Assembly: GCA_947177935.1 (NCBI GenBank)
Contig: CAMWWG010000013.1
Span: forward strand, 1-11,099
Direction of reading: 5' to 3'
DNA: 11,099 nucleotides
Origin: an uncultured Ruminococcus sp.
Lineage (GTDB): Bacteria > Bacillota > Clostridia > Oscillospirales > Ruminococcaceae
Position 1 is the first letter of the stretch, and every line of letters starts with the position of its first letter. Positions 1 through 11,099 of this stretch are shown one piece after another. The notes below the pieces were generated by a model that did no database searches, was not told the DNA's origin, and worked only from the letters and a program-made list of their open reading frames with translations. The translations under genes and the position numbers were made by a program.

Positions 1-331
1 GTCTGCCGTAGGCATTGCGTTTTACATAGACGGGGAGTGTTCCGAAACAGGTTTGATTCTGATTCTGGATTTCCTTTGCTAGGAGGATCAGACCGGCACA
101 CGTGCCAAGAACAGGCATATTTTCGGAAATTTTATCCCGTAGGATCTGGAACAGATCCAGTTCATGAATTAATTTTGATTGCACAGTGCTTTCACCGCCG
201 ACCAAGATCAGGCGGTCGAGATTCTGAGGAATGTCCTGTTTTTTCCGGATCAGGATGTAATTTTCTGACAAAAGATCTAAAACATGGGCATGTTCTGCAA
301 AAGCGCCTTGTACTGCAAGAATTCCCGTCAT
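1..331 (-). CDS. pdxT: PdxT, glutaminase subunit of PLP synthase (partial, 3' end off left edge)
   Basis: The first 110 codons of pyridoxal 5'-phosphate synthase glutaminase. In this family the enzyme hydrolyses glutamine and channels ammonia to PdxS in the cytoplasm. Visible motifs are the N-terminal GILAVQGAFAEH, the oxyanion-region GGEST at residues 45-49 (family PGGEST, here preceded by Val), and the nucleophile elbow GTCAGLILLA with Cys78 as the expected catalytic cysteine. The fragment ends in the family signature RNAYGR. The catalytic His and Glu lie beyond the window. The ATG at 329-331 is only 2 bp after the pdxS stop, and its ribosome binding site (AAAGAGG, plus positions 341-347) is inside the end of pdxS. 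The two genes are therefore almost certainly co-transcribed and translationally coupled. Class I amidotransferase identity is clear from motif order. Confidence 0.96.
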   Translation of the reverse strand, partial: MTGILAVQGAFAEHAHVLDLLSENYILIRKKQDIPQNLDRLILVGGESTVQSKLIHELDLFQILRDKISENMPVLGTCAGLILLAKEIQNQNQTCFGTLPVYVKRNAYGR

Positions 332-333
332 GA

Positions 334-1221
334 TTATTTGCCTCTTTCCGCCATCAGCAAGGCAATTTCCTGTTCGTTGATCCCTACCATTGCTTCACCG
401 AGGTTTTCGGAGAGACTGGCGAGTAGTGCAGGATCATTATAATTTGTCACAGCTTTGACGATTGCGGCAGCACGTTTTTCCGGATTGCCGGATTTGAAGA
501 TGCCAGAGCCGACGAATACACCCTCTGCACCGAGTTGCATCATAAGGGCGGCATCTGCCGGAGTTGCTACACCACCGGCGGCGAAATTCACAACCGGGAG
601 TTTTTTATTTTCATACACAAATCTGACAAGTTCAACCGGGACTTGGAGCTGTTTTGCTGTTTCAAACAGTTCATCTTCACGCATGGAAGTAATAGCGGCA
701 ATCTGGCTTTGCATTTTTCGCATATGACGGACAGCCTGGACAACATCGCCTGTACCCGGCTCGCCTTTCGTGCGGATCATGGATGCACCCTCAGCGATTC
801 TGCGGAGAGCCTCACCGAGATCTTTTGCACCGCAGACGAATGGGACTTGAAATTTGGATTTATCAATATGATAGACATCATCCGCCGGGCTGAGGACTTC
901 ACTCTCATCAATATAATCAATTGCAATTGCTTGCAGGATCTGTGCTTCTGCGAAATGACCGATCCGGCATTTTGCCATGACAGGAATACTGACAGCATTC
1001 TGAATGCCTTTGATCATAGCAGGATCACTCATTCTAGAAACACCGCCTGCGGCACGAATATCTGCCGGAATGCGTTCAAGAGCCATAACCGCACATGCGC
1101 CGGCGGATTCGGCAATTTTCGCCTGTTCGGGTGTCGTGACATCCATAATTACACCGCCTTTGAGCATTTGAGCAAGTTCCTTGTTGAGTGCATAACGATC
1201 TGCATTTTGATGATTCTGCAT
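334..1221 (-). CDS. pdxS: PdxS, PLP synthase lyase subunit
   Basis: A 295-residue protein, the normal length for PdxS (also called SNZ or YaaD). The family makes pyridoxal 5'-phosphate from ribose 5-phosphate, glyceraldehyde 3-phosphate and ammonia supplied by PdxT, in a 12+12 subunit complex. It is a TIM barrel with the conserved blocks [55 protein letters not shown] and [20 protein letters not shown] all present. By alignment with B. subtilis PdxS, Asp27, Lys84 and Lys152 correspond to the catalytic Asp24, Lys81 and Lys149. The reading frame is open 25 codons further upstream, but the start at 1219-1221 fits both the family N-terminus and a strong ribosome binding site (AAAAGGAGA, plus positions 1229-1237). 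It is followed by pdxT after 2 bp. Transcription is expected from the promoter at 1285-1313. Confidence 0.98.
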
Positions 1222-1240
1222 AAAAAAATCTCCTTTTCTG

Positions 1241-1262
1241 GAATTGTCAGGATTGACAATTC
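1241..1262. repeat. perfect 9-bp inverted repeat in pdxS leader
   Basis: GAATTGTCA (1241-1249) and TGACAATTC (1254-1262) are exact reverse complements around a 4-base loop. In the pdxST transcript this would fold into a hairpin ending 3 bases before the pdxS Shine-Dalgarno stretch. On the other strand its right arm contains most of the -35 box (TTGACA, 1253-1258) of the pdxR promoter. It could be an RNA hairpin affecting pdxS translation, a DNA site for PdxR or another regulator, or both. The repeat is directly visible; the role is inference. Confidence 0.6.
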
Positions 1263-1281
1263 TGTATTCATTTTGTATAAT
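1253..1281 (+). promoter_or_regulatory. pdxR promoter (consensus sigma-A)
   Basis: TTGACA at 1253-1258 and TATAAT at 1276-1281 with exactly 17 bp between them, a perfect match to the vegetative consensus. The start of transcription should be near 1288, giving pdxR a leader of about 70 bases that includes the two 13-bp direct repeats. It lies face to face with the pdxST promoter. Confidence 0.82.
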
Positions 1282-1284
1282 GAT

Positions 1285-1313
1285 AGTATACTGCAATTCT
1301 GGTCTGATGACAA
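1285..1313 (-). promoter_or_regulatory. pdxST promoter (sigma-A type)
   Basis: Read on the minus strand: TTGTCA (plus positions 1308-1313), a 17-bp spacer, then TATACT (1285-1290). Transcription would start near 1278. Its -10 box is separated from the pdxR -10 box by only 3 bp, so RNA polymerase bound at one promoter should exclude it from the other. The direct repeats at 1314-1345 sit immediately upstream of its -35 box, the position expected for an activator. Confidence 0.75.
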
Positions 1314-1345
1314 GAACCAGATCAGATATTCTGAACCAGGTCAGA
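1314..1345. promoter_or_regulatory. putative PdxR operator: two 13-bp direct repeats
   Basis: GAACCAGATCAGA (1314-1326) and GAACCAGGTCAGA (1333-1345) differ at one base and are spaced 19 bp start to start. A partial inverted copy, TCTGGTCTGAT (1298-1308), lies inside the pdxST promoter spacer and also uses TCTGGT and TCTGAT. MocR-type PdxR proteins studied in other bacteria bind direct or inverted repeats between pdxR and pdxST, activating pdxST and repressing pdxR. These copies lie directly upstream of the pdxST -35 box and downstream of the pdxR start of transcription, which fits both actions. Assignment to PdxR is inference. Confidence 0.6.
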
Positions 1346-1357
1346 AAGGAGAATTTT

Positions 1358-2659
1358 ATGCTTACTTATGAATTGGAGCAGTCCAGAACTGAACCGTTAT
1401 ATAGCCAGATTTATCAATTAATCAGACAGGATATCGAAACAGGACGCATTTCAGCAGGAGAGAAACTGCCGTCTAAAAGAATGCTGGCATTGCAGTTAGG
1501 TGTCAGTGTCATGACAATTGAGAATGCCTATCAGCAGTTGCAGGCAGAGGGATATATCAAGTCAGTTGCCCGCAAAGGATGGTATGCAGAAAGATTAGAA
1601 AGCCAGTTAATAAAAAAATCGGATTCTGGGATTTTCATTCCGGAGCAGGAGCAGTTGGAAGAACAGCAGGGCTTGTTTCCGTTTACCGTATGGGCAAAGA
1701 TCATGCGGGAAGAGCTTGCCGGGAATCAGAGAAAATTACTGACAAGAACGCCGTCTAAAGGTGCATTGGAACTGCGGCAGGCAATTGCAGTGCATTTGAA
1801 AAATTTCCGGAACATGGATGTGCAGCCGGAGCAGATTATTATCGGTGCAGGCACGGAATATTTATATATGTTGATTCATATTCTGCTTGGAAATCTGCAT
1901 TTCGGAATTGAAGATCCGGGTTATGCAAAGATTGCGGCGATTTATGCCAGTCTGGGATTGCAGTATGAATATATTTCCATGCAGGAAGATGGAATTGATA
2001 TAAATGCACTGCGGAACAGTCAGGCGGATGTAATGCATATTTCACCGTCGCATCATTTTCCTACGGGAGCGATTACATCCATCGGAAAACGGTATACATT
2101 GCTTGGCTGGGCATCGGAACAGGCGCAGAGATATATTATTGAGGATGATTATGACAGTGAATTTCGATTATCCGGAAAGCCTATTCCGGCGTTGTTTAAT
2201 ATTGATGTCATGGAAAAAGTGATTTATATCAATACATTCAGTAAGAGTTTAACACCTACAATCCGCATTAGTTATATGATACTGCCGATGGGGTTATTGC
2301 AGAAATTTCAGGAAAAATTGAATTATTATTCCTGTACGGTTTCCAATTTTGAACAGTACACATTGGCAAGATTTATACAGGAAAATTATTTTGAAAAGCA
2401 TATTCATAGAATGCGGAAATATTACAAAGACAGGAGAAATTTGTTATTTGCGGAAATGAAAAAGCATTCTGTTTTCAGAAAATCTGTTATTTCCGGGGAA
2501 GATGCCGGATTGCATTGTCTGGTGAAGTTTGAAACGGGTCTTACGGATGCAGAATTATTGGAACATGTGAAAAGTTTAGGATTTCATGCGGCGGCTTTAC
2601 AGGAATATTATCATACAAAACCGGCGGAGGAGCTGCATGTTCTGGTATTTTATTATTAA
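1358..2659 (+). CDS. pdxR: PdxR, MocR-family regulator of PLP synthesis
   Basis: A 433-residue GntR-type regulator fused to a fold-type I aminotransferase domain. Residues about 8-75 form the winged helix ([19 protein letters not shown], then [25 protein letters not shown]). From about residue 100 the aminotransferase-like domain follows, with [29 protein letters not shown] and the PLP lysine in NTFSKSL (Lys296). In this family PLP bound as an internal aldimine reports vitamin B6 status. The divergent position next to pdxST supports PdxR over other MocR members. The frame is open upstream to 1244, but the ATG at 1358 has a good ribosome binding site (AAAGGAGA, 1345-1352) and matches the family N-terminus. 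The protein stops at LHVLVFYY, where relatives usually continue for roughly 20 more residues, so it may lack the final helix. Confidence 0.93.
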
Positions 2660-2703: not shown

Positions 2704-4824
2704 TTAGGATTTCAAAGAAATTCTGCGTTGTGTGAGCCATTTTTCATAAAGCCGTTCATATTCGTTCATGTTAGTAGAAGTCGTACTGATACGGCAGAAC
2801 TTTAATTTATAGGATGAAATACCTGTCAACGAGTATTCCAGTTCAAAGGGGGTAAGTCTGGAGATTTCATAGCCATTTATTTCTGTAGAGAGTGGAATGA
2901 CAATTGCATGGGAGATCAAAATTTTCTCTGCTTCGGCAAAAGCCGTGTATCTGGTGAATTTATCACCGTAATTCTCTGTTGCCTGCGTGTATTTTTCCTG
3001 CCAGTTCTGGAAAATTTCCTGTGTAGTACGATATTCGCTCTGATCCCAGTAAGTATAATCCTGTCCGGCCTGGAATGGTTCTGCCCAGGTCTGCGGATCT
3101 ATGTAATTTGCTGTGACGGAACATTTCATAAAAGCAAAGTTTCCTGATTCCCGGAGATTAGACTGTCGGGATGCGTAAAGTTCCACTTGGATGAAATCCG
3201 TGCCAAGTGTTGTTTCAAGTTGGCTTTTGAGAAGTTCACATTCCTGTTCCAGATGTGGCACACTGGAATCATACGGCATAAAAACCTGAATCGGGAATAC
3301 TGCCCCTGCATTGGTAAGTTCTTCCCTTGCCAGATCCCGAAATTCCTGTGCCTGTGTCGGATTGTAAGAATCTGCCATAGTGATGGGCGCAAGGGCGGTG
3401 AACTGTGTGTAGTCCGTTCCTGCACCAAATGTGAATTCTTTCGGCGTAATTGTACGATTCAGGAAACGTTCCGGCTGATAGGATTCATACAGAGAAACTA
3501 ATGCAACAGGATTGATTGCATGAGTGATCGCTAGCCGGAAATTTTCATGATTAACGGCAATTTTCCAGTTTTGCGGATTATATTTTTCATCAAACTGCGG
3601 GTCAAAATTAAATACATAGAAGTAACTGGTGGCGTGATCCGGCTGCATGGGATGGACAAGATCCTTTGTTTCTGCATCATTCATCCATTGATCAAGGGAA
3701 TCCGAAGAAATCAGAATCCGGTCAATCTCATGACTAAGGAAGGAATCTTCTTTAAATTGTTCCGGGTTTTCGGAATAAATTAATTCCAGGCGGTCAATAT
3801 AGATATTCTGTTTGTCCCAATACTGGGAATTTTTTGTCAGGATCTGTTTTTCATCCGGAATGTCTTCCGTCAGCAGATAAGCGCCGTTATAAAGAATATG
3901 CTGATAATCCTGTCCAAAATTCTCTTTGGATTGTTCCAGGAACTGTCTGTTGACGGGCATGAATGCCGGACTGCTGAGCAGATCCAGGAAATACGGACAT
4001 GGGGAATCCAGTGTAAACACAAGCGTATTTTTTTCAGGCGCCTGAACGCCAATGTCTCGTGGGAGAATTTGCCGGATTTGTTCACTGGTTTCCTGCGTGT
4101 CTTCTGTAAATTCTGTGAATTCTGTAAAATCCGGATTGTTTTCAGAAGTTTCTGAATACCAGGACGGCTTGCTTGTTGCCGGTTCTGTTTCTTCTGTTTC
4201 TCCGGTGGTTTCTGTTGTTTCTATCGAATCAGATGTTTCAGAATTGTTTTTTTTCTGATGCAGACTTTCCCGGATTTCTTCCGCACGTTGACGTTTTTCA
4301 TTCCGGATGTCAATCTTGTACGCTGTATAGTCATAATATGCCTGTGCATTCTGGACTGTCATATGTGTGGTGTAAGATGTCTGCCAGTCAGAATTATTTT
4401 CAGCGTTGTTGATATATTCCGCCGCCGCCACCCAGTCATCTGCAACAACTTCTGCATAGGGGTTTCCCTCAGAATCCAACCACTGGACACCTGGACGGAT
4501 CTGAAACGTCCATTGCGTCATGCTGTCATTGTAAGTCCAGCTCTCCGCAAGTGATGGGATGATATTCCCATAGGAATCATATTCGACAAGGCAGTCGATT
4601 GTATTTGCCAGGATGGTAGAGAGTATTTCAGAATCTGTCACAAGATAATTATAATCCTGGATTTTTTCTGTTTCATATATCCGGAACAGATTATTTTCTG
4701 ATACGGATGTTTTCTTCGGAACGGAAACGGAGTCTGTTTCCGGACTGCACGCCGTCAGCAGGAAACATGTTCCGGCACAGACGACGGCGAGCAGTCTCCG
4801 ACAGAATCCGGTATTACATAACAT
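2704..4824 (-). CDS. family-5 (OppA-like) peptide-binding lipoprotein
   Basis: A 706-residue extracytoplasmic solute-binding protein of the SBP_bac_5 family, which delivers oligopeptides or similar solutes to an ABC importer. Residues 1-26 form a lipoprotein signal (Arg-Arg, hydrophobic core, lipobox LTAC with Cys26). The typical N-lobe follows (NTIDCLVEYDSYGNIIPSLAESW, then WTFQIRPGVQWLDSEG and VVADDW). The C-terminal lobe has AITHAINPVALVSLYE and a family-like end (AEAEKILISHAIVIPL). An acidic Ser/Thr-rich insert at about residues 190-247 makes it longer than usual relatives. The start is uncertain: ATG 4822-4824 gives the most compact signal peptide and overlaps the upstream foldase gene by 11 bp, ATG 4840-4842 is an alternative, and neither has a good Shine-Dalgarno, suggesting translational coupling. 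No permease or ATPase gene is nearby, so the substrate is unknown. Confidence 0.85.
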   Translation of the reverse strand: MLCNTGFCRRLLAVVCAGTCFLLTACSPETDSVSVPKKTSVSENNLFRIYETEKIQDYNYLVTDSEILSTILANTIDCLVEYDSYGNIIPSLAESWTYNDSMTQWTFQIRPGVQWLDSEGNPYAEVVADDWVAAAEYINNAENNSDWQTSYTTHMTVQNAQAYYDYTAYKIDIRNEKRQRAEEIRESLHQKKNNSETSDSIETTETTGETEETEPATSKPSWYSETSENNPDFTEFTEFTEDTQETSEQIRQILPRDIGVQAPEKNTLVFTLDSPCPYFLDLLSSPAFMPVNRQFLEQSKENFGQDYQHILYNGAYLLTEDIPDEKQILTKNSQYWDKQNIYIDRLELIYSENPEQFKEDSFLSHEIDRILISSDSLDQWMNDAETKDLVHPMQPDHATSYFYVFNFDPQFDEKYNPQNWKIAVNHENFRLAITHAINPVALVSLYESYQPERFLNRTITPKEFTFGAGTDYTQFTALAPITMADSYNPTQAQEFRDLAREELTNAGAVFPIQVFMPYDSSVPHLEQECELLKSQLETTLGTDFIQVELYASRQSNLRESGNFAFMKCSVTANYIDPQTWAEPFQAGQDYTYWDQSEYRTTQEIFQNWQEKYTQATENYGDKFTRYTAFAEAEKILISHAIVIPLSTEINGYEISRLTPFELEYSLTGISSYKLKFCRISTTSTNMNEYERLYEKWLTQRRISLKS
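4085..4255 (-). other. acidic Ser/Thr-rich low-complexity insert in the peptide-binding protein
   Basis: About 57 residues composed mostly of Glu, Thr and Ser, including IETTETTGETEETEP and the tandem FTEFTEFTED. It interrupts the binding-protein fold between the AQAYYDYTAYKID segment and the QAPEKNTLVFTLDSPCPYF strand. It is probably a disordered surface loop, possibly glycosylated. That role is inference; the composition is directly visible. Confidence 0.75.
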
Positions 4825-6178
4825 GGAATTTAAATGGGTCATAACGCTTGAAAGAAGCGTCATTCTTCTGGATGTTGAGAATCGCAGACCACTCGTCCAT
4901 TTTTTCCTCGAACGCATCGGAATACTTGGAAACCCGGGCATTATAGATATTGCTCTCATTCCAGAGATCTTCTTCCGTCATTCGGTCACGAATCGCATAA
5001 CGTGTGACAAGATAATAAGCTTCGTCTTCCTCGACAAGATAGACTTTGCCATAATCAGTGTCCGTGATCGAAAGGAGCTGATTGTAAACATCTTCACTTG
5101 GTGTGTAGTAGATTTCCTCATCATCTTCGTAATCTTCGAGATTGATGACAGAAATGATAGATTCATTTGTGTAAGAAACAGTTTCTGTTTCTGTTTCAGA
5201 ATCAGAATCCAGATTAGAATCTAAATCAGTGTCTAAATCAGATTCGAATTCAGCATCTAAATCAGATTCAGAATCCAGATTAGAATTTAAAACCTCTGTT
5301 GTCGTTTCTTCCGGATTTTCAGAATCTTCAGAATCTGTTACGGTGGTTGTCTCCGTCGGGACTGTCTCGGCTTTCGCCGTTGTCGTGGTTAATTCTTCTT
5401 CCGGAATGCCGGCTTCCTGTTCAGAAACAGAAGTCATGTAGTAATCATAATCATCCTGGATGCGATTCATTTCGGTCATAACGGCTTCTGCACCGCCGTC
5501 CTGATAGGCTTTTTCTGCCTGATTCTGATATTTTTTGGCTAATTCCAGAATTTCTGCTTTTTCAGAATCTTCCAGGACATTCCCCTCGCTGTCGTGGAGA
5601 TCAAATTTGACATACTGCGCACGGATGTTGTTTTCGGCATAGTAATCCTGTAATTCTTCTTCTGTGACGCCTTCTTCGGCACCGATTTCATAATAATGAT
5701 CAAAAACAGCTTCACTCTTGTAACTGGATGTCATGACCTTGCGGAATGATTCTTCACTTACACCCAGTTCCGTCATAGAATCTGCGTAATAACTCCAGTA
5801 ATATTCTAGCATACTTTCCAGTTGTTCTTTTGTTTCCGCATCCAATTCCAGACCAAGTTCATCGAATTTCTTTTCTGTTGTCACGAAATCGACACAGAGC
5901 TCTGTTGCCTTGTCTTCCACCCATGTTCGAATATCCTTATTGTCAAGATACAACGTCTGGAGCATTTTGGTGTCTGTCGTGTCCAGGCTTTCATTTTCAG
6001 AAGAAAGCTGTGAAAGCGCATTACTATAAGAAGAATTCAGATAATACAGGTAGACACCTGCCGGGACAACGTAATCATCAATTGTCATTGCGGTTGTGGT
6101 ATTATGGCCACAGCCTGTGCAGGCTGCAATCAATGTGACAACAGTCAGGACAGCAGGGACTTTTTTAAAAGAAAACAT
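4814..6178 (-). CDS. PrsA/SurA-like lipoprotein, putative extracytoplasmic foldase
   Basis: A 454-residue predicted lipoprotein. The signal peptide has FKK, a hydrophobic stretch and two possible lipobox cysteines (IAAC at Cys20, CTGC at Cys23). The N-terminal half (DDYVVPAGVYLYYLNSSYSNAL, a region rich in charged helices, then EEGVTEEELQDYYAENN) resembles SurA_N/PrsA-type chaperone domains. A C-terminal part (SEDVYNQLLSITDTDYGKVYLVEEDEAYYLVTRY) could be a degenerate rotamase-like segment. I see no convincing parvulin catalytic residues, so isomerase activity is not claimed. An acidic Thr/Glu then Ser/Asp-rich linker (about residues 258-338) separates the halves. The start at 6176-6178 is set by a perfect GGAGGT ribosome binding site (plus positions 6186-6191). 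It heads a two-gene unit with the peptide-binding protein, which begins inside its last codons. Confidence 0.7.
   Translation of the reverse strand: MFSFKKVPAVLTVVTLIAACTGCGHNTTTAMTIDDYVVPAGVYLYYLNSSYSNALSQLSSENESLDTTDTKMLQTLYLDNKDIRTWVEDKATELCVDFVTTEKKFDELGLELDAETKEQLESMLEYYWSYYADSMTELGVSEESFRKVMTSSYKSEAVFDHYYEIGAEEGVTEEELQDYYAENNIRAQYVKFDLHDSEGNVLEDSEKAEILELAKKYQNQAEKAYQDGGAEAVMTEMNRIQDDYDYYMTSVSEQEAGIPEEELTTTTAKAETVPTETTTVTDSEDSENPEETTTEVLNSNLDSESDLDAEFESDLDTDLDSNLDSDSETETETVSYTNESIISVINLEDYEDDEEIYYTPSEDVYNQLLSITDTDYGKVYLVEEDEAYYLVTRYAIRDRMTEEDLWNESNIYNARVSKYSDAFEEKMDEWSAILNIQKNDASFKRYDPFKFHVM
5184..5290. repeat. degenerate coding repeat for a Ser-Asp/Asp-Leu linker
   Basis: The block is built from variants of CAGATTCAGAATC. 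The 19-mer TCAGAATCCAGATTAGAAT occurs exactly at 5202-5220 and again at 5268-5286, 66 bp (22 codons) apart, so repeat gain or loss can keep the frame. It encodes a run of Asp, Ser, Leu and Asn (SNLDSESDLD and similar) inside the foldase-like protein. This makes it a likely site of length variation among strains. Confidence 0.75.
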
Positions 6179-6218
6179 GTTTTTTACCTCCGATGATAGA
6201 TTATAATAGATCATCTTT

Positions 6219-7239: not shown

Positions 7240-7362
7240 TTACGCTCTCTTTCTGCGGTTTCTGCGCCGTCTAGCGAGGATGTAAGAAGCCGTACTGCCA
7301 CACATCAGGATTGCGCCAACGGTGTGACTTCTACCCACGCCGGGACCACCCGTAGAAGGCAT
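7240..7362 (-). other. C-terminal sortase sorting signal (MPSTG)
   Basis: Residues 1246-1285: the motif MPSTG followed by GPGVG, a short hydrophobic segment (AILMCGSTASYILA) and a strongly basic tail (ARRRRNRRKRA). This is an LPXTG-type cell-wall anchoring signal with Met in place of the first Leu. No sortase gene is in the window. Confidence 0.9.
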
Positions 7363-10300
7363 AGAAATTTCATGACTTTCTATTTTGGTATTCCGGATAG
7401 TGATTGCGCCGTCGCCGGGGTTTGTAGCGTTGATTGCATAAATTGTGGTGTTGTCGCCATCTTCAAAGAGATAACTTACATCAAAGCCAACATGAGACTC
7501 TTCGACTACCCAATAGTAATAGAGATTACCCTCTGCGTCATATACATCAAGATCTTCTACAACCGTTTTCCAACCTGTCGTTGCGGTGATGTCTACTGAT
7601 TTTACTAGCTCTGTGTCGTTGTTTGCGCCTTCCGGCTCTGTCCCGTTTGCGAATGCATAGAATGTTGTAACATTCTGGAGGGAGAGCTTTGCAGGATCAG
7701 AAGAAACTTTGAATGTTTCTGATGTGCCATCAGCATAATTTATGGTATAACTATAAACATATATCGTGGAAGTGCGTTCTTTAAGTTCTTCTACATGGCT
7801 TTTATCGTTATTATTATACACACCCCAACTTGTTTTTCCAGTACGACTAAGATCATAAGTTACTATATTACCATTAATAGATGCTGATATATAATTTTCT
7901 GTAAATTGATAATTTTCTATTACATTTCCATCATAATAAACAGTACCATGCTGATAAGACCAGTCAGAACTTGTAATGTAGAGATCAATATAACCTGTAC
8001 TACCTTCTAACTTAAATGAAATACTATTTATAGCTTTGTTTGTAGTAATATCAAAATGCTCTCCTGCATTCAAAGTGTGTAATGGTGTAGCATTTTCAAC
8101 TTTTATAGTGAAATAATTTTCTAGTTTATCATCACGCACAGCTGTAATTGTGGCTGTACCCTCAGCCTTGCCTGTTATCTCACCAGTAATTTCATCTACT
8201 TCAGCAATATTAGAATTAGAAGATGACCACTTAAACGATCCGTAATTTGGATTAACTTCTAATTGGACTTTATCACCTGGTGCAATCGTATCAATGCCAA
8301 TAATCTCAAAATTATTTGGCAGTTTTATTTCAAGATTTACGCTTGCAGTGTTTCCACTTTCATCAGTTGCAGTAATGGTAACAACGCCTTTATTTCTTCC
8401 TGTTACTGTTACTGTATTACCATCTATGCTGACATCACTTGAACTTGCAGAATAAGTTACATTACCTATATTTTTCTCTATTGACAGTGTTGCTGTTTCG
8501 TTAGTGCCTAACACAATTGCGCTAGGACTAATTGTGAGAGACATATCCGAAACTGTAACCTTAATTTCTGCTGTGTTATCATTCTCGTCTGTCACTGTAA
8601 TCGTAGTTGTACCCTCTGCATTGCCATGAATTATGATTGTTTTATCATCAAATGTTACCGTTGCAATATTTTCATCCTTTGATGTAGCAGAGGCAATAGT
8701 TTTATTTGCACTTACAGTTGCATCTTTATTCACGCCAACAGATACCGTGCTTGGCACTTTCAGAATCAGCTCCGCATCACTCGGCACATCCGCAGGATTG
8801 GTAGAACGGTAGATATTCACGCTGATACTGCCTTGCGGATCATCCACACCGACCCAATCTTTTTTCAGCGTCAATGCAAGCTGTCTTGTGTTGGTGAGTG
8901 TGAGCGTACCTGTTTCGGTTTTACTAGCTTGCCAAATATCAGGCGTGTCATACTGAACCTTGTAGCCTTCCATCTCAGCTTCTTCTACTTTGTAGGAGTA
9001 AGTTTTGCCGGCGTTGTTTGTTACAGGAAGATTTTCGTATGTGTACGTCCAGGTATTTCCATCCTTAGTAGGTGTAGGCATATCTACAGCGACTTCTTCC
9101 CAATTAGTGCCATCCACACTACACATCAGTGCAAGGGAGATGCCGTCTCTTTTGCTTGTGTCTGCACTGTCACCGACCCAATTCTTCACAACAGAAATTT
9201 CCGTTTTGGGAGTTTTCTCCTTTGTGTTCATAGCAATGATTGGTGTTGCAGTGCCTGGCTTTAAACCTTGACCGGAATAGGTAACAGTCCAACCATCCGG
9301 AACGTTTATTTCCTCGATATAGTATTCACCATCATCCGGAACGTCTACGACTGCTGTCCAGTTATTGCCTTTTTTGAGTGAAACAGAAATCCGGTTGCCA
9401 TTTTTATCAACTACATATTCTTTCCCATCAACAGCTGTACAAGTATCTACATAATAAACATTATTAGCGGACTCTGCATATGCTTCTATTTGAGCATTGT
9501 AATTGTCAATCAGACCATTTGCCTCTTTGCCATCATTTTCTTGATACTGTGATGGCCACCATCTACCGCCTTCTGTAATTGCACCATTCTTATAGAAATC
9601 AAAGTGCGGGATGCTGCCTACAAAAATTGTAGCATTAGGGACATGCGCCTGAATTTCTTCAATACAAGCTTGCAATCTTCTCATACATTCATTGGGATTA
9701 GCCTGACCACTCCCACTTTGATGAATATCATTGGTACCACCAAGCAGAAGAACAATATTTGTATCTGATGGAATATCTCTACTTATTCGACCTCTAAAAC
9801 CGTCAGTATCTGAATTGCCTACTTGTTCTCCAGAATTACCCTTATTAGTTACATTGCCACCAGCAAGTTGATAACTTGCGTTAGTTAAAAGTGTTGTCAA
9901 TTGTTCAGGATAAGGTGTTCCAGTATTATAACTATGTGTAATAGAATCACCCAAAGCCACAATCTTCAATTCAGTATTTTTACTTTCACTATACTGACTT
10001 TCAATTGCATCAAAGTATGCTTTAGCAATTGCTGCATAACCTTCTGTATTCGGATGACATCCATCAGCAAGTAATGGATCAGCAGCTTGCTTATACAACT
10101 CCAATGTAATGGACGGCAAACCATCTGTATTATTTGCCACAATATTGCCATCTTCATCATAGATGTCTATGATCGGTTCGCCGGTTTCATCAAACCACTG
10201 CTTTTGTACCACAATTGCTGTTCTGGTGTTCTTCACGGTGTATGTGGTTTTCGCACCGTTTTTGATAGGGGTATAAGTTGCAGTATACTTGACGTTGTTT

Positions 10301-11099
10301 GTCACGCTGTCCATGTTTTCCAGTACATAATAATAGTACGTTACTGGATTGTTCGGATCAGCACCCTCAGCACCTTCATCATCCATGGGCAGACCCGTCC
10401 AGGTATAAGACCAGTCATTTGCTGCATTCAGTACAATGTCTTCATAACCTGTTGTATTGCCCTCGGCATCTGTCATTACTTTGGCAGATTTTAAAGCATT
10501 TTTCAATTCATCATGCGTCATGCTTGAAATGTTCTGGATTTCACGTTCTGACTGATACAGCGTTACTAGCACTTTATCTTTCGTGTGATTTGCTGCACCA
10601 TCACTCCAGGTCTTGTTTACGGTAACAGATGCCTCCGTTGCCACTTTGCTCTTATTAGTGACGGTAATATCACCAGTATTCTCATTCAGATTGAATACAC
10701 AGCTTATGACATAATCATCCTCGTTCGGGAGACCGGTTTCTTCTGCACGGAAACTTACATAACCTGATAATTTTTTATTTCCTAACTCTTCCAGTTTATC
10801 AGTGATGTCAAGTTTCCAGTCTTTGGCTCTCTCAAGTTTAATTTCCTCAAAGAGCTTCTCTTCTGCACCAAGTGCCGTCACACCATAGATGTCTACTGTG
10901 ATTTGATCTACTGGAATTTTACCCTCACTTAATTCATCATTAGAAGAATTCTTCCAGACTTTTTTCAGCATTAATTGCTTAGAGTTCGTAATTGTGACGT
11001 TAGAATCTGTATTGGCAGCATTTCCCACATAAGTCGGATAATATGCGCCCTCTTCTTCGTTAGCCTTGTACTTGCCGGTAGTTTCGTCCAGTGTATAAG
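7240..11099 (-). CDS. giant sortase-anchored Cna-B surface protein with nested SGNH and Ig-like domains (partial, 5' end off right edge)
   Basis: At least 1285 C-terminal residues of a cell-wall adhesin or pilin-like protein (numbering from the first complete codon, 11095-11097). The frame is open to the edge and reads as Cna-B throughout, so the GTG near 11028 is internal. After the tail of one Cna-B domain come five more: A about 41-151, B 152-292, C 293-626, D 627-738, E 739-1238. Each shows a Lys-X-Trp start (Lys46, 162, 299, 638, 746), a Glu (119, 260, 595, 705, 1199) and a final Asn (148, 290, 624, 736, 1236), the pattern of intramolecular isopeptide bonds. C is interrupted by a permuted SGNH hydrolase, E by three Big_2 repeats and an unknown beta domain. 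A sorting signal ends the protein. Likely role: adhesion plus esterase activity at the cell surface; substrate unknown. Confidence 0.92.
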   Translation of the reverse strand, partial: YTLDETTGKYKANEEEGAYYPTYVGNAANTDSNVTITNSKQLMLKKVWKNSSNDELSEGKIPVDQITVDIYGVTALGAEEKLFEEIKLERAKDWKLDITDKLEELGNKKLSGYVSFRAEETGLPNEDDYVISCVFNLNENTGDITVTNKSKVATEASVTVNKTWSDGAANHTKDKVLVTLYQSEREIQNISSMTHDELKNALKSAKVMTDAEGNTTGYEDIVLNAANDWSYTWTGLPMDDEGAEGADPNNPVTYYYYVLENMDSVTNNVKYTATYTPIKNGAKTTYTVKNTRTAIVVQKQWFDETGEPIIDIYDEDGNIVANNTDGLPSITLELYKQAADPLLADGCHPNTEGYAAIAKAYFDAIESQYSESKNTELKIVALGDSITHSYNTGTPYPEQLTTLLTNASYQLAGGNVTNKGNSGEQVGNSDTDGFRGRISRDIPSDTNIVLLLGGTNDIHQSGSGQANPNECMRRLQACIEEIQAHVPNATIFVGSIPHFDFYKNGAITEGGRWWPSQYQENDGKEANGLIDNYNAQIEAYAESANNVYYVDTCTAVDGKEYVVDKNGNRISVSLKKGNNWTAVVDVPDDGEYYIEEINVPDGWTVTYSGQGLKPGTATPIIAMNTKEKTPKTEISVVKNWVGDSADTSKRDGISLALMCSVDGTNWEEVAVDMPTPTKDGNTWTYTYENLPVTNNAGKTYSYKVEEAEMEGYKVQYDTPDIWQASKTETGTLTLTNTRQLALTLKKDWVGVDDPQGSISVNIYRSTNPADVPSDAELILKVPSTVSVGVNKDATVSANKTIASATSKDENIATVTFDDKTIIIHGNAEGTTTITVTDENDNTAEIKVTVSDMSLTISPSAIVLGTNETATLSIEKNIGNVTYSASSSDVSIDGNTVTVTGRNKGVVTITATDESGNTASVNLEIKLPNNFEIIGIDTIAPGDKVQLEVNPNYGSFKWSSSNSNIAEVDEITGEITGKAEGTATITAVRDDKLENYFTIKVENATPLHTLNAGEHFDITTNKAINSISFKLEGSTGYIDLYITSSDWSYQHGTVYYDGNVIENYQFTENYISASINGNIVTYDLSRTGKTSWGVYNNNDKSHVEELKERTSTIYVYSYTINYADGTSETFKVSSDPAKLSLQNVTTFYAFANGTEPEGANNDTELVKSVDITATTGWKTVVEDLDVYDAEGNLYYYWVVEESHVGFDVSYLFEDGDNTTIYAINATNPGDGAITIRNTKIESHEISMPSTGGPGVGRSHTVGAILMCGSTASYILARRRRNRRKRA
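7699..8091 (-). other. unrecognised beta-rich domain nested in Cna-B domain E
   Basis: Residues about 1003-1133. It has alternating hydrophobic strands with many aromatics (SISFKLEGSTGYIDLYI, SSDWSYQHGTVYYDG, TSWGVYNNND, IYVYSYTINYADGT). The layout suggests a beta-sandwich such as a carbohydrate-binding module, but I cannot name a family. The DNA here is very A+T rich (11 G+C of 60 at 7861-7920), unlike the flanking Cna-B scaffold. Confidence 0.5.
8092..8760 (-). other. three bacterial Ig-like (Big_2) repeats nested in Cna-B domain E
   Basis: Residues about 780-1002 hold three units of roughly 70-75 residues: 780-851, 852-928 and 929-1002. Each has the Big_2 pattern: a strand opening, a variant of W/Y-S-S-S-(N)-x-x-I/V-A/S-x-V in the middle (KWSSSNSNIAEVD, TYSASSSDVSID, SATSKDENIATVT), and a G-x-x-x-G-x-x-x-I-T-(A/V) ending (GKAEGTATITAV, GRNKGVVTITAT, GNAEGTTTITVT). 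Such domains usually act as spacers or adhesive modules on the cell surface. Confidence 0.85.
9418..10086 (-). other. circularly permuted SGNH/GDSL hydrolase domain nested in Cna-B domain C
   Basis: Residues about 338-560. In protein order: the block V piece ADGCHPNTEGYAAIAKAYFD (Asp345, His348), a short polar linker, block I IVALGDSITHSYN (Ser385), block II around NKGNSGEQ (Gly420-Gly423), block III LLLGGTNDIHQ (Asn456), then the late strand NNVYYVDTCTAVDGK. In ordinary SGNH hydrolases the DxxHP block comes last, right after a strand like VYYVDT. Here it has moved to the front, with the break exactly between those two elements. All catalytic residues (Ser, Gly, Asn, Asp/His) are present, so activity as an esterase or deacylase is plausible. 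Cna-B sequence (LELYKQ before; NGNRISVSLKKGNNW after) resumes on both sides. Confidence 0.85.

Follow-up and report, generated by a model that had tools for sequence, protein, structure and literature searches.

A probable circularly permuted SGNH hydrolase domain inside a Cna-B loop of a Ruminococcus surface protein, and a likely second permutation in the same slot

The window analyzed here is the entire contig CAMWWG010000013.1 (C13; 11,099 nucleotides) of assembly GCA_947177935.1, a metagenome-assembled genome (MAG) of an uncultured Ruminococcus sp. that is 57.6% complete. Its minus strand carries the C-terminal part of a large surface protein, and because this open reading frame (ORF) lacks a closed 5' end, residues are numbered from position 11097. 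A Pfam scan of the protein found Cna_B, Lipase_GDSL_2, Lipase_GDSL, and Big_2, and an apparent LPxTG-like motif precedes a hydrophobic stretch and a basic tail; we take this motif, MPSTG, to be of the sortase type. Many of its relatives among the matches listed are 3.4 to 4.1 thousand residues long. One Cna-B loop of this protein very probably contains a complete, circularly permuted, and catalytically competent SGNH hydrolase domain.

SGNH blocks I (GDS), II (Gly), III (Asn), and V (DxxH) are all present in the domain, but they run in the order H-S-G-N instead of the canonical S-G-N-H, which makes the domain a permuted SGNH relative. The Asp-His block (ADGCHPN, residues 344 to 350) precedes the Ser block, and the frame from 7240 to 11097 is unbroken through the insert region. 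The Pfam Lipase_GDSL_2 match to the protein (residues 381 to 557, 2e-21) stops at profile position 154 of 178. A profile made from eight standard-order relatives (A1) matched the window genome out of order, with model positions 159 to 230 (E value, 2e-10) upstream of model positions 3 to 205 (E value, 6e-70). An earlier note on this DNA had claimed an Asp-His block ahead of the Ser block, with four intact blocks in one frame; the motif positions and the out-of-order A1 match bear this out, and the cut lies at the point that the note had proposed, after the VYYVD strand and before block V.

The host strand SITLELYK (residues 329 to 336) precedes the insert, and the host restarts with ISVSLKK at residue 570. 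While the Cna_B profile recognized three stretches of the window protein, the best at residues 634 to 736, the split slot domain was recognized by its strand pattern and homology. Candidate isopeptide residues K299, E596, and N624 lie at the expected motifs on either side of the insert, at positions that we presume to be those of the isopeptide motif. The features are collected in Table 1.

Table 1. Features of the surface protein encoded in the window
Feature	Positions	Strand	Basis or remark
C-terminal 1285 residues of large Cna-B-rich sortase-type surface protein	7240..11097	-	5' end beyond contig edge
Host Cna-B domain, first half, residues 290-337; K299 (VVQKQW) as candidate lysine of the isopeptide	10087..10230	-	alignment, motif
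Relocated segment, residues 338-373, with SGNH block V plus the last helix; found at the C-terminal end of the domain in standard relatives	9979..10086	-	alignment, profile match
DGCHPN, block V, catalytic Asp345 and His348	10048..10065	-	motif
SGNH core, beta1 to beta5, residues 374-558	9424..9978	-	Pfam Lipase_GDSL_2, Lipase_GDSL; structure matches
GDSIT, block I, catalytic Ser385, residues 383-387	9937..9951	-	motif
NKGNSG, block II Gly420, residues 418-423	9829..9846	-	motif, alignment
GGTNDIHQ, block III Asn456, residues 453-460	9718..9741	-	motif, alignment
VYYVD, beta5, residues 547-551; permutation cut comes after	9445..9459	-	motif, alignment, model
Host Cna-B domain, second half, residues 570-630, candidate E596 and N624	9208..9390	-	alignment, motif
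Second insertion: Big_2 Ig-like and unassigned modules, apparent matching loop of last Cna-B	7615..8775	-	Big_2 Pfam match; loop by reading
MPSTG sortase-type motif (residue 1246), then hydrophobic segment and basic tail	7348..7362	-	read from sequence

Relatives with the standard order occupy the same position. Apart from the window's own protein, an initial protein search, with candidates restricted to 0.55 to 1.75 times the query length, gave 38 relatives; 34 kept both blocks, always with the Ser block first, and the remaining four were truncated. On this set alone the window looked unique. An alignment of the 34 with the window (eight rows inspected) shows the SGNH domain flanked by the same Cna-B strands, and this, together with a confident structure model, supports both parts of the earlier note's reading, a circularly permuted SGNH domain and its insertion in a Cna-B loop. 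A short-length search yielded one further relative, P0040, of standard order. In a third search, with a longer query, 120 of 1595 matches were listed. The resulting set comprised 159 proteins, of which 155 have a complete domain; P0036 to P0039, in which the domain is truncated, were left out of the counts of order and slot. Slot borders in this tally were set by pattern. The order was standard in 149 of the 155 and permuted in 6, namely, the window and five proteins with another cut, which came with the longer query; as only 120 of 1595 matches were listed, these counts are not estimates of frequency. Inserts measure 235 to 239 residues in the permuted proteins and 239 to 278 (median, 242) in the standard ones, so the SGNH domain has been neither partly lost nor doubled. 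A simple pattern found the K, E, and N isopeptide motifs in 135 of the 155 slot proteins, the misses including truncated rows and P0056.

The window is not the only carrier of its permutation. A search of genome contigs with A1 returned nine loci, six of which (L079 to L082, L084, and L086) have the standard order in large frames, while a seventh (L087), a 367-residue frame from an Ignavibacteriales MAG, is also of standard order. The other two share both the order and the cut of the window. One, L083 (JAFTWL010000046.1), is from Ruminococcus sp. RGIG4212 of roe deer colon, and the other, L085 (JAGAQS010000095.1), from Ruminococcus sp. RGIG8687 of water deer colon. Among 87 loci, A1 matched out of order only in these two and in the window's own copies (L001 and L026). 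Their identity to the window protein is 51% over 677 columns (L083) and 47% over 845 columns (L085), and a permutation common to proteins this diverged is shared rather than recent. A contig scan with the window domain confirmed no relatives among 33 candidate stretches, and in a sample of 394 genomes across the order, at E values up to 1e-25, only the window's own genome matched.

The five other permuted proteins (P0056, P0057, P0060, P0064, and P0069; 3579 to 3805 residues, on 13 contigs in total) occupy the same Cna-B slot as the form seen in the window (permA) but are cut differently. In this second form (permB) the cut comes after the SIPHFDF strand, so that the insert opens with the segment preceding NIYFADVC and closes shortly past HFDF. 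A tree of 50 domains, all put in the standard register, recovered a permA clade (98/95) and a permB clade (100/100), with the standard-order P0047 as sister to permB (98/97); its starred branches impose two changes of order. This tree excludes duplicates, split matches, locus matches from frames no longer than 900 residues, and those that span no more than 200 model positions. In an earlier tree of 33 rows, which lacked L083 and L085, joining all six permuted rows was rejected by 103 log-likelihood units (approximately unbiased test, p-AU 1e-80). Because permA and permB form separate clades with different cuts, the sequences suggest that at least two separate permutations likely took place in one slot.

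The slot also appears to exchange its contents. Across 32 representatives (496 pairs), the identities of the 150-residue upstream and downstream flanks correlate with each other at 0.82 but with the insert at only 0.36 and 0.34, and the nearest neighbor by flanks was the nearest by insert in only 4 of 32. P0070 and P0072 have flanks that are 99 and 98% identical around SGNH inserts that are 44% identical; the corresponding values are 97 and 85% against 41% for P0047 and P0062, and 91 and 89% against 39% for P0061 and P0068. The borders of identity in such pairs are sharp, lying right before beta1 and near the end of the last helix. The permuted P0064 and the standard P0061 likewise have flanks of 87 and 84% identity and inserts of 40%, whereas the permB proteins P0064 and P0069 share an insert of 80% identity in frames that are just 64 to 67% identical. 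Since neighbors by flank and by insert so seldom coincide and near-identical flanks hold diverged inserts, the slot appears to trade complete SGNH cassettes, the permuted ones among them. One relative genome (G250; contigs C4, C17, C48, C55, and C56) has five A1 matches, and four of these lie in open frames of 2687 to 3684 residues. It is possible that such proteins act as donors in the exchange.

The rotation itself likely took place inside the slot, although we are less sure of this than of the domain. The SGNH domain would have been duplicated in tandem in the slot, after which the first copy would have lost its front and the second its back. In the permuted domain, a short linker connects the native C-terminal helix to native beta1. 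The alternative, that the slot took up an SGNH cassette already permuted in another place, is unlikely, within a search for free-standing permuted relatives that was not wide, but is the best of the rivals. It accords with the apparent exchange of cassettes and with the presence of a permB cassette in the two dissimilar frames of P0064 and P0069; yet the linkers at the slot ends of permB match the slot's own flanks (LDVxKK; KVGSITL), and the tree sister of permB, P0047, is a standard domain from this very slot.

Several points weigh against the overall reading, a permuted and working SGNH domain in the Cna-B slot, or limit what the evidence for it can carry. A tandem intermediate was not seen among the 155 proteins. 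The point at which permA joins the standard domains is undecided in the 50-domain tree, several long branches of which were flagged, and recombination within domains could distort this tree. AlphaFold modeled the SGNH-in-Cna-B region of the window, with the three-layer alpha/beta/alpha fold of SGNH proteins, at a predicted local distance difference test (pLDDT) score of 91.7 and a predicted template-modeling (pTM) score of 0.80, but the other four models averaged pLDDT 84 to 87, and this evidence consists of confidence scores rather than of the Ser385-His348-Asp345 geometry or the distance between the new ends. Most standard relatives entered the model's input (A2) as three pieces, which let block V align at its moved place, and the only continuous rows besides the window were L083 and L085; the model is therefore no independent proof of packing. 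Foldseek matches to solved structures were modest (50 rows listed), with target-normalized TM scores of 0.23 to 0.60 and root mean square deviations of up to 11.5; this is what a sequential aligner would give for a permuted domain, but it is no proof of one.

The SGNH fold has its native ends at one edge and its catalytic loops at the opposite one. With the new ends between beta5 and the Asp-His loop, the Cna-B frame would instead be attached at the catalytic edge. Only 8 residues separate the host strand from Asp345 in the window; in the standard proteins, the median is 17 positions between the host strand and Ser and 37 between His and the point where the host resumes. Each of the two cuts comes after a beta strand, at the catalytic edge, so that by fold topology the frame of the permuted forms is likely to lie beside or facing the active site. 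The placement of both cuts at this edge amounts to two events and does not prove selection. One idea is that a disulfide, Cys553-Cys347, might span the cut; a simple pattern for the two cysteines (VYYVDTC and DGCHP) found both in 36 of 50 domains, the first being missing in L086 and P0068. A broader proposal, which we offer tentatively and consider rather more apt to fail than to hold, is that the Cna-B loop acts as a register-free socket for enzymes. Complete SGNH enzymes would be swapped into it in whichever circular register fits, and the two rotations would turn the catalytic edge toward the isopeptide-locked frame, making the frame part of the active-site entrance.

The permuted domain is likely still active as a wall-anchored esterase, as judged from its residues. 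It is improbable that it is instead a dead remnant retained as a spacer or binding module: inserts do vary far more than flanks, and esterase activity is a prediction from sequence, but the catalytic and oxyanion residues are retained in 3 permA proteins, with inserts 56 to 57% identical to that of the window, and in 5 permB proteins, which are about 74 to 100% identical. Structure matches include 2vpt (a Clostridium thermocellum CE3 enzyme), Axe2, and sialate O-acetylesterase, and by analogy with such fold neighbors the substrate is likely an O-acyl ester carried by a glycan of plant or host origin.

With SGNH/GDSL hydrolases (Lipase_GDSL_2; CE2/CE3-type and other carbohydrate esterases) the domain shares its fold, blocks I to III and V, and the catalytic residues; it differs in having block V first and, as read from the sequence, in its insertion in a Cna-B loop of a giant wall-anchored protein. 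The H-S-G-N order is itself known from AlgX, AlgJ, and DHHW (PatB1) proteins, as described in two papers (PMC9487903, PMC4148444), so that the domain could be an inserted member of one of these acyltransferase families, with no new permutation. We consider this very improbable. At E values up to 1, the Pfam matches include Lipase_GDSL_2 and Lipase_GDSL but no AlgX or DHHW; the blocks of the window are the canonical GDS, GTND, and DxxH, whereas those papers describe GTSYS and DxH in AlgJ, KDS in PatB1, cap domains, and acetylation pathways; and the window domain, which has standard relatives in the same slot, groups with them in trees that did not include AlgX and DHHW. Neither the profile nor the noncanonical blocks that mark those families were thus found in it. 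AlgX and DHHW chains were also absent among the structure matches listed, which is no evidence on its own. The weakest alternative, an assembly chimera of two SGNH domains, for which the earlier note had allowed at 9418 to 10086, has almost no chance of being correct: the window protein is alone in its 90% cluster (one member, one contig) and the contig terminates within the gene, but misassembly is ruled out by L083 and L085, which lie on contigs of other MAGs and at 51% and 47% identity have the same order and cut, and the insert is one complete in-frame domain of normal length.

The earlier note had also known of no described protein with this layout. This holds insofar as the open-licence PubMed Central (PMC) literature yielded no paper combining Cna-B with SGNH and none combining Ruminococcus, GDSL, and Cna, while for LPXTG with SGNH hydrolase it turned up only one paper, on lipolytic enzymes of skin bacteria; it does not hold for the block order as such, which AlgX/AlgJ and DHHW have, nor for this protein as a single case, since L083 and L085 share its permutation. 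Partial parallels exist. The influenza C HEF esterase is an SGNH domain within a surface loop of another domain (PMC3779223), but it is viral, and the passage on it mentions neither a permuted order nor a Cna-B host. The loops of CnaA and CnaB folds tolerate insertions, mostly isopeptide or adhesion domains (PMC12617251); the slot described here instead holds an enzyme, which occurs in three circular registers and apparently moves as a cassette. Circularly permuted inserted domains are mentioned for RNA polymerase (PMC13114784), a different protein, and the passage concerned makes no mention of a single site that holds both standard and permuted registers. What is new is permutation inside one family at one socket, likely on two occasions.

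The standard and two permuted forms of one enzyme thus lie in the same host-domain loop in related gut bacteria, with flanks that mark the ends of the cassettes. Natural circular permutants are mostly met after very long divergence, and event, cause, and effect are then hard to disentangle. The shared loop and flanks make the effect of permutation on activity, stability, and orientation directly testable with the rest nearly equal. The arrangement also suggests that an isopeptide-type domain can serve as a natural scaffold for enzyme display on the cell wall.

Elsewhere in the window protein, a second insertion lies between the strand SISVNIYRST at residue 757 and a restart at TELVKSVDI at residue 1162. 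The loop of the last Cna-B domain thus apparently is filled too, and two Cna-B loops of one protein would carry inserts. A module of about 130 residues inside this insertion (residues 1005 to 1135; 7693 to 8085, minus strand) has BspA_v as its best Pfam match, at an E value of 0.06, which is below the cut-off. Beyond this gene, SNO (PdxT-like) and SOR/SNZ (PdxS-like) genes lie in divergent orientation to a GntR/aminotransferase regulator (2 to 1296, minus strand; 1244 to 2659, plus strand), and the region is an ordinary pyridoxal phosphate (PLP) synthesis locus. Between the two, on the minus strand at 2704 to 6214, a family 5 solute-binding protein adjoins a lipoprotein-like ORF with no Pfam match above the cut-off. 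The listed frames of this pair share 146 bases, at 4814 to 4959, and one start is therefore probably mis-set.
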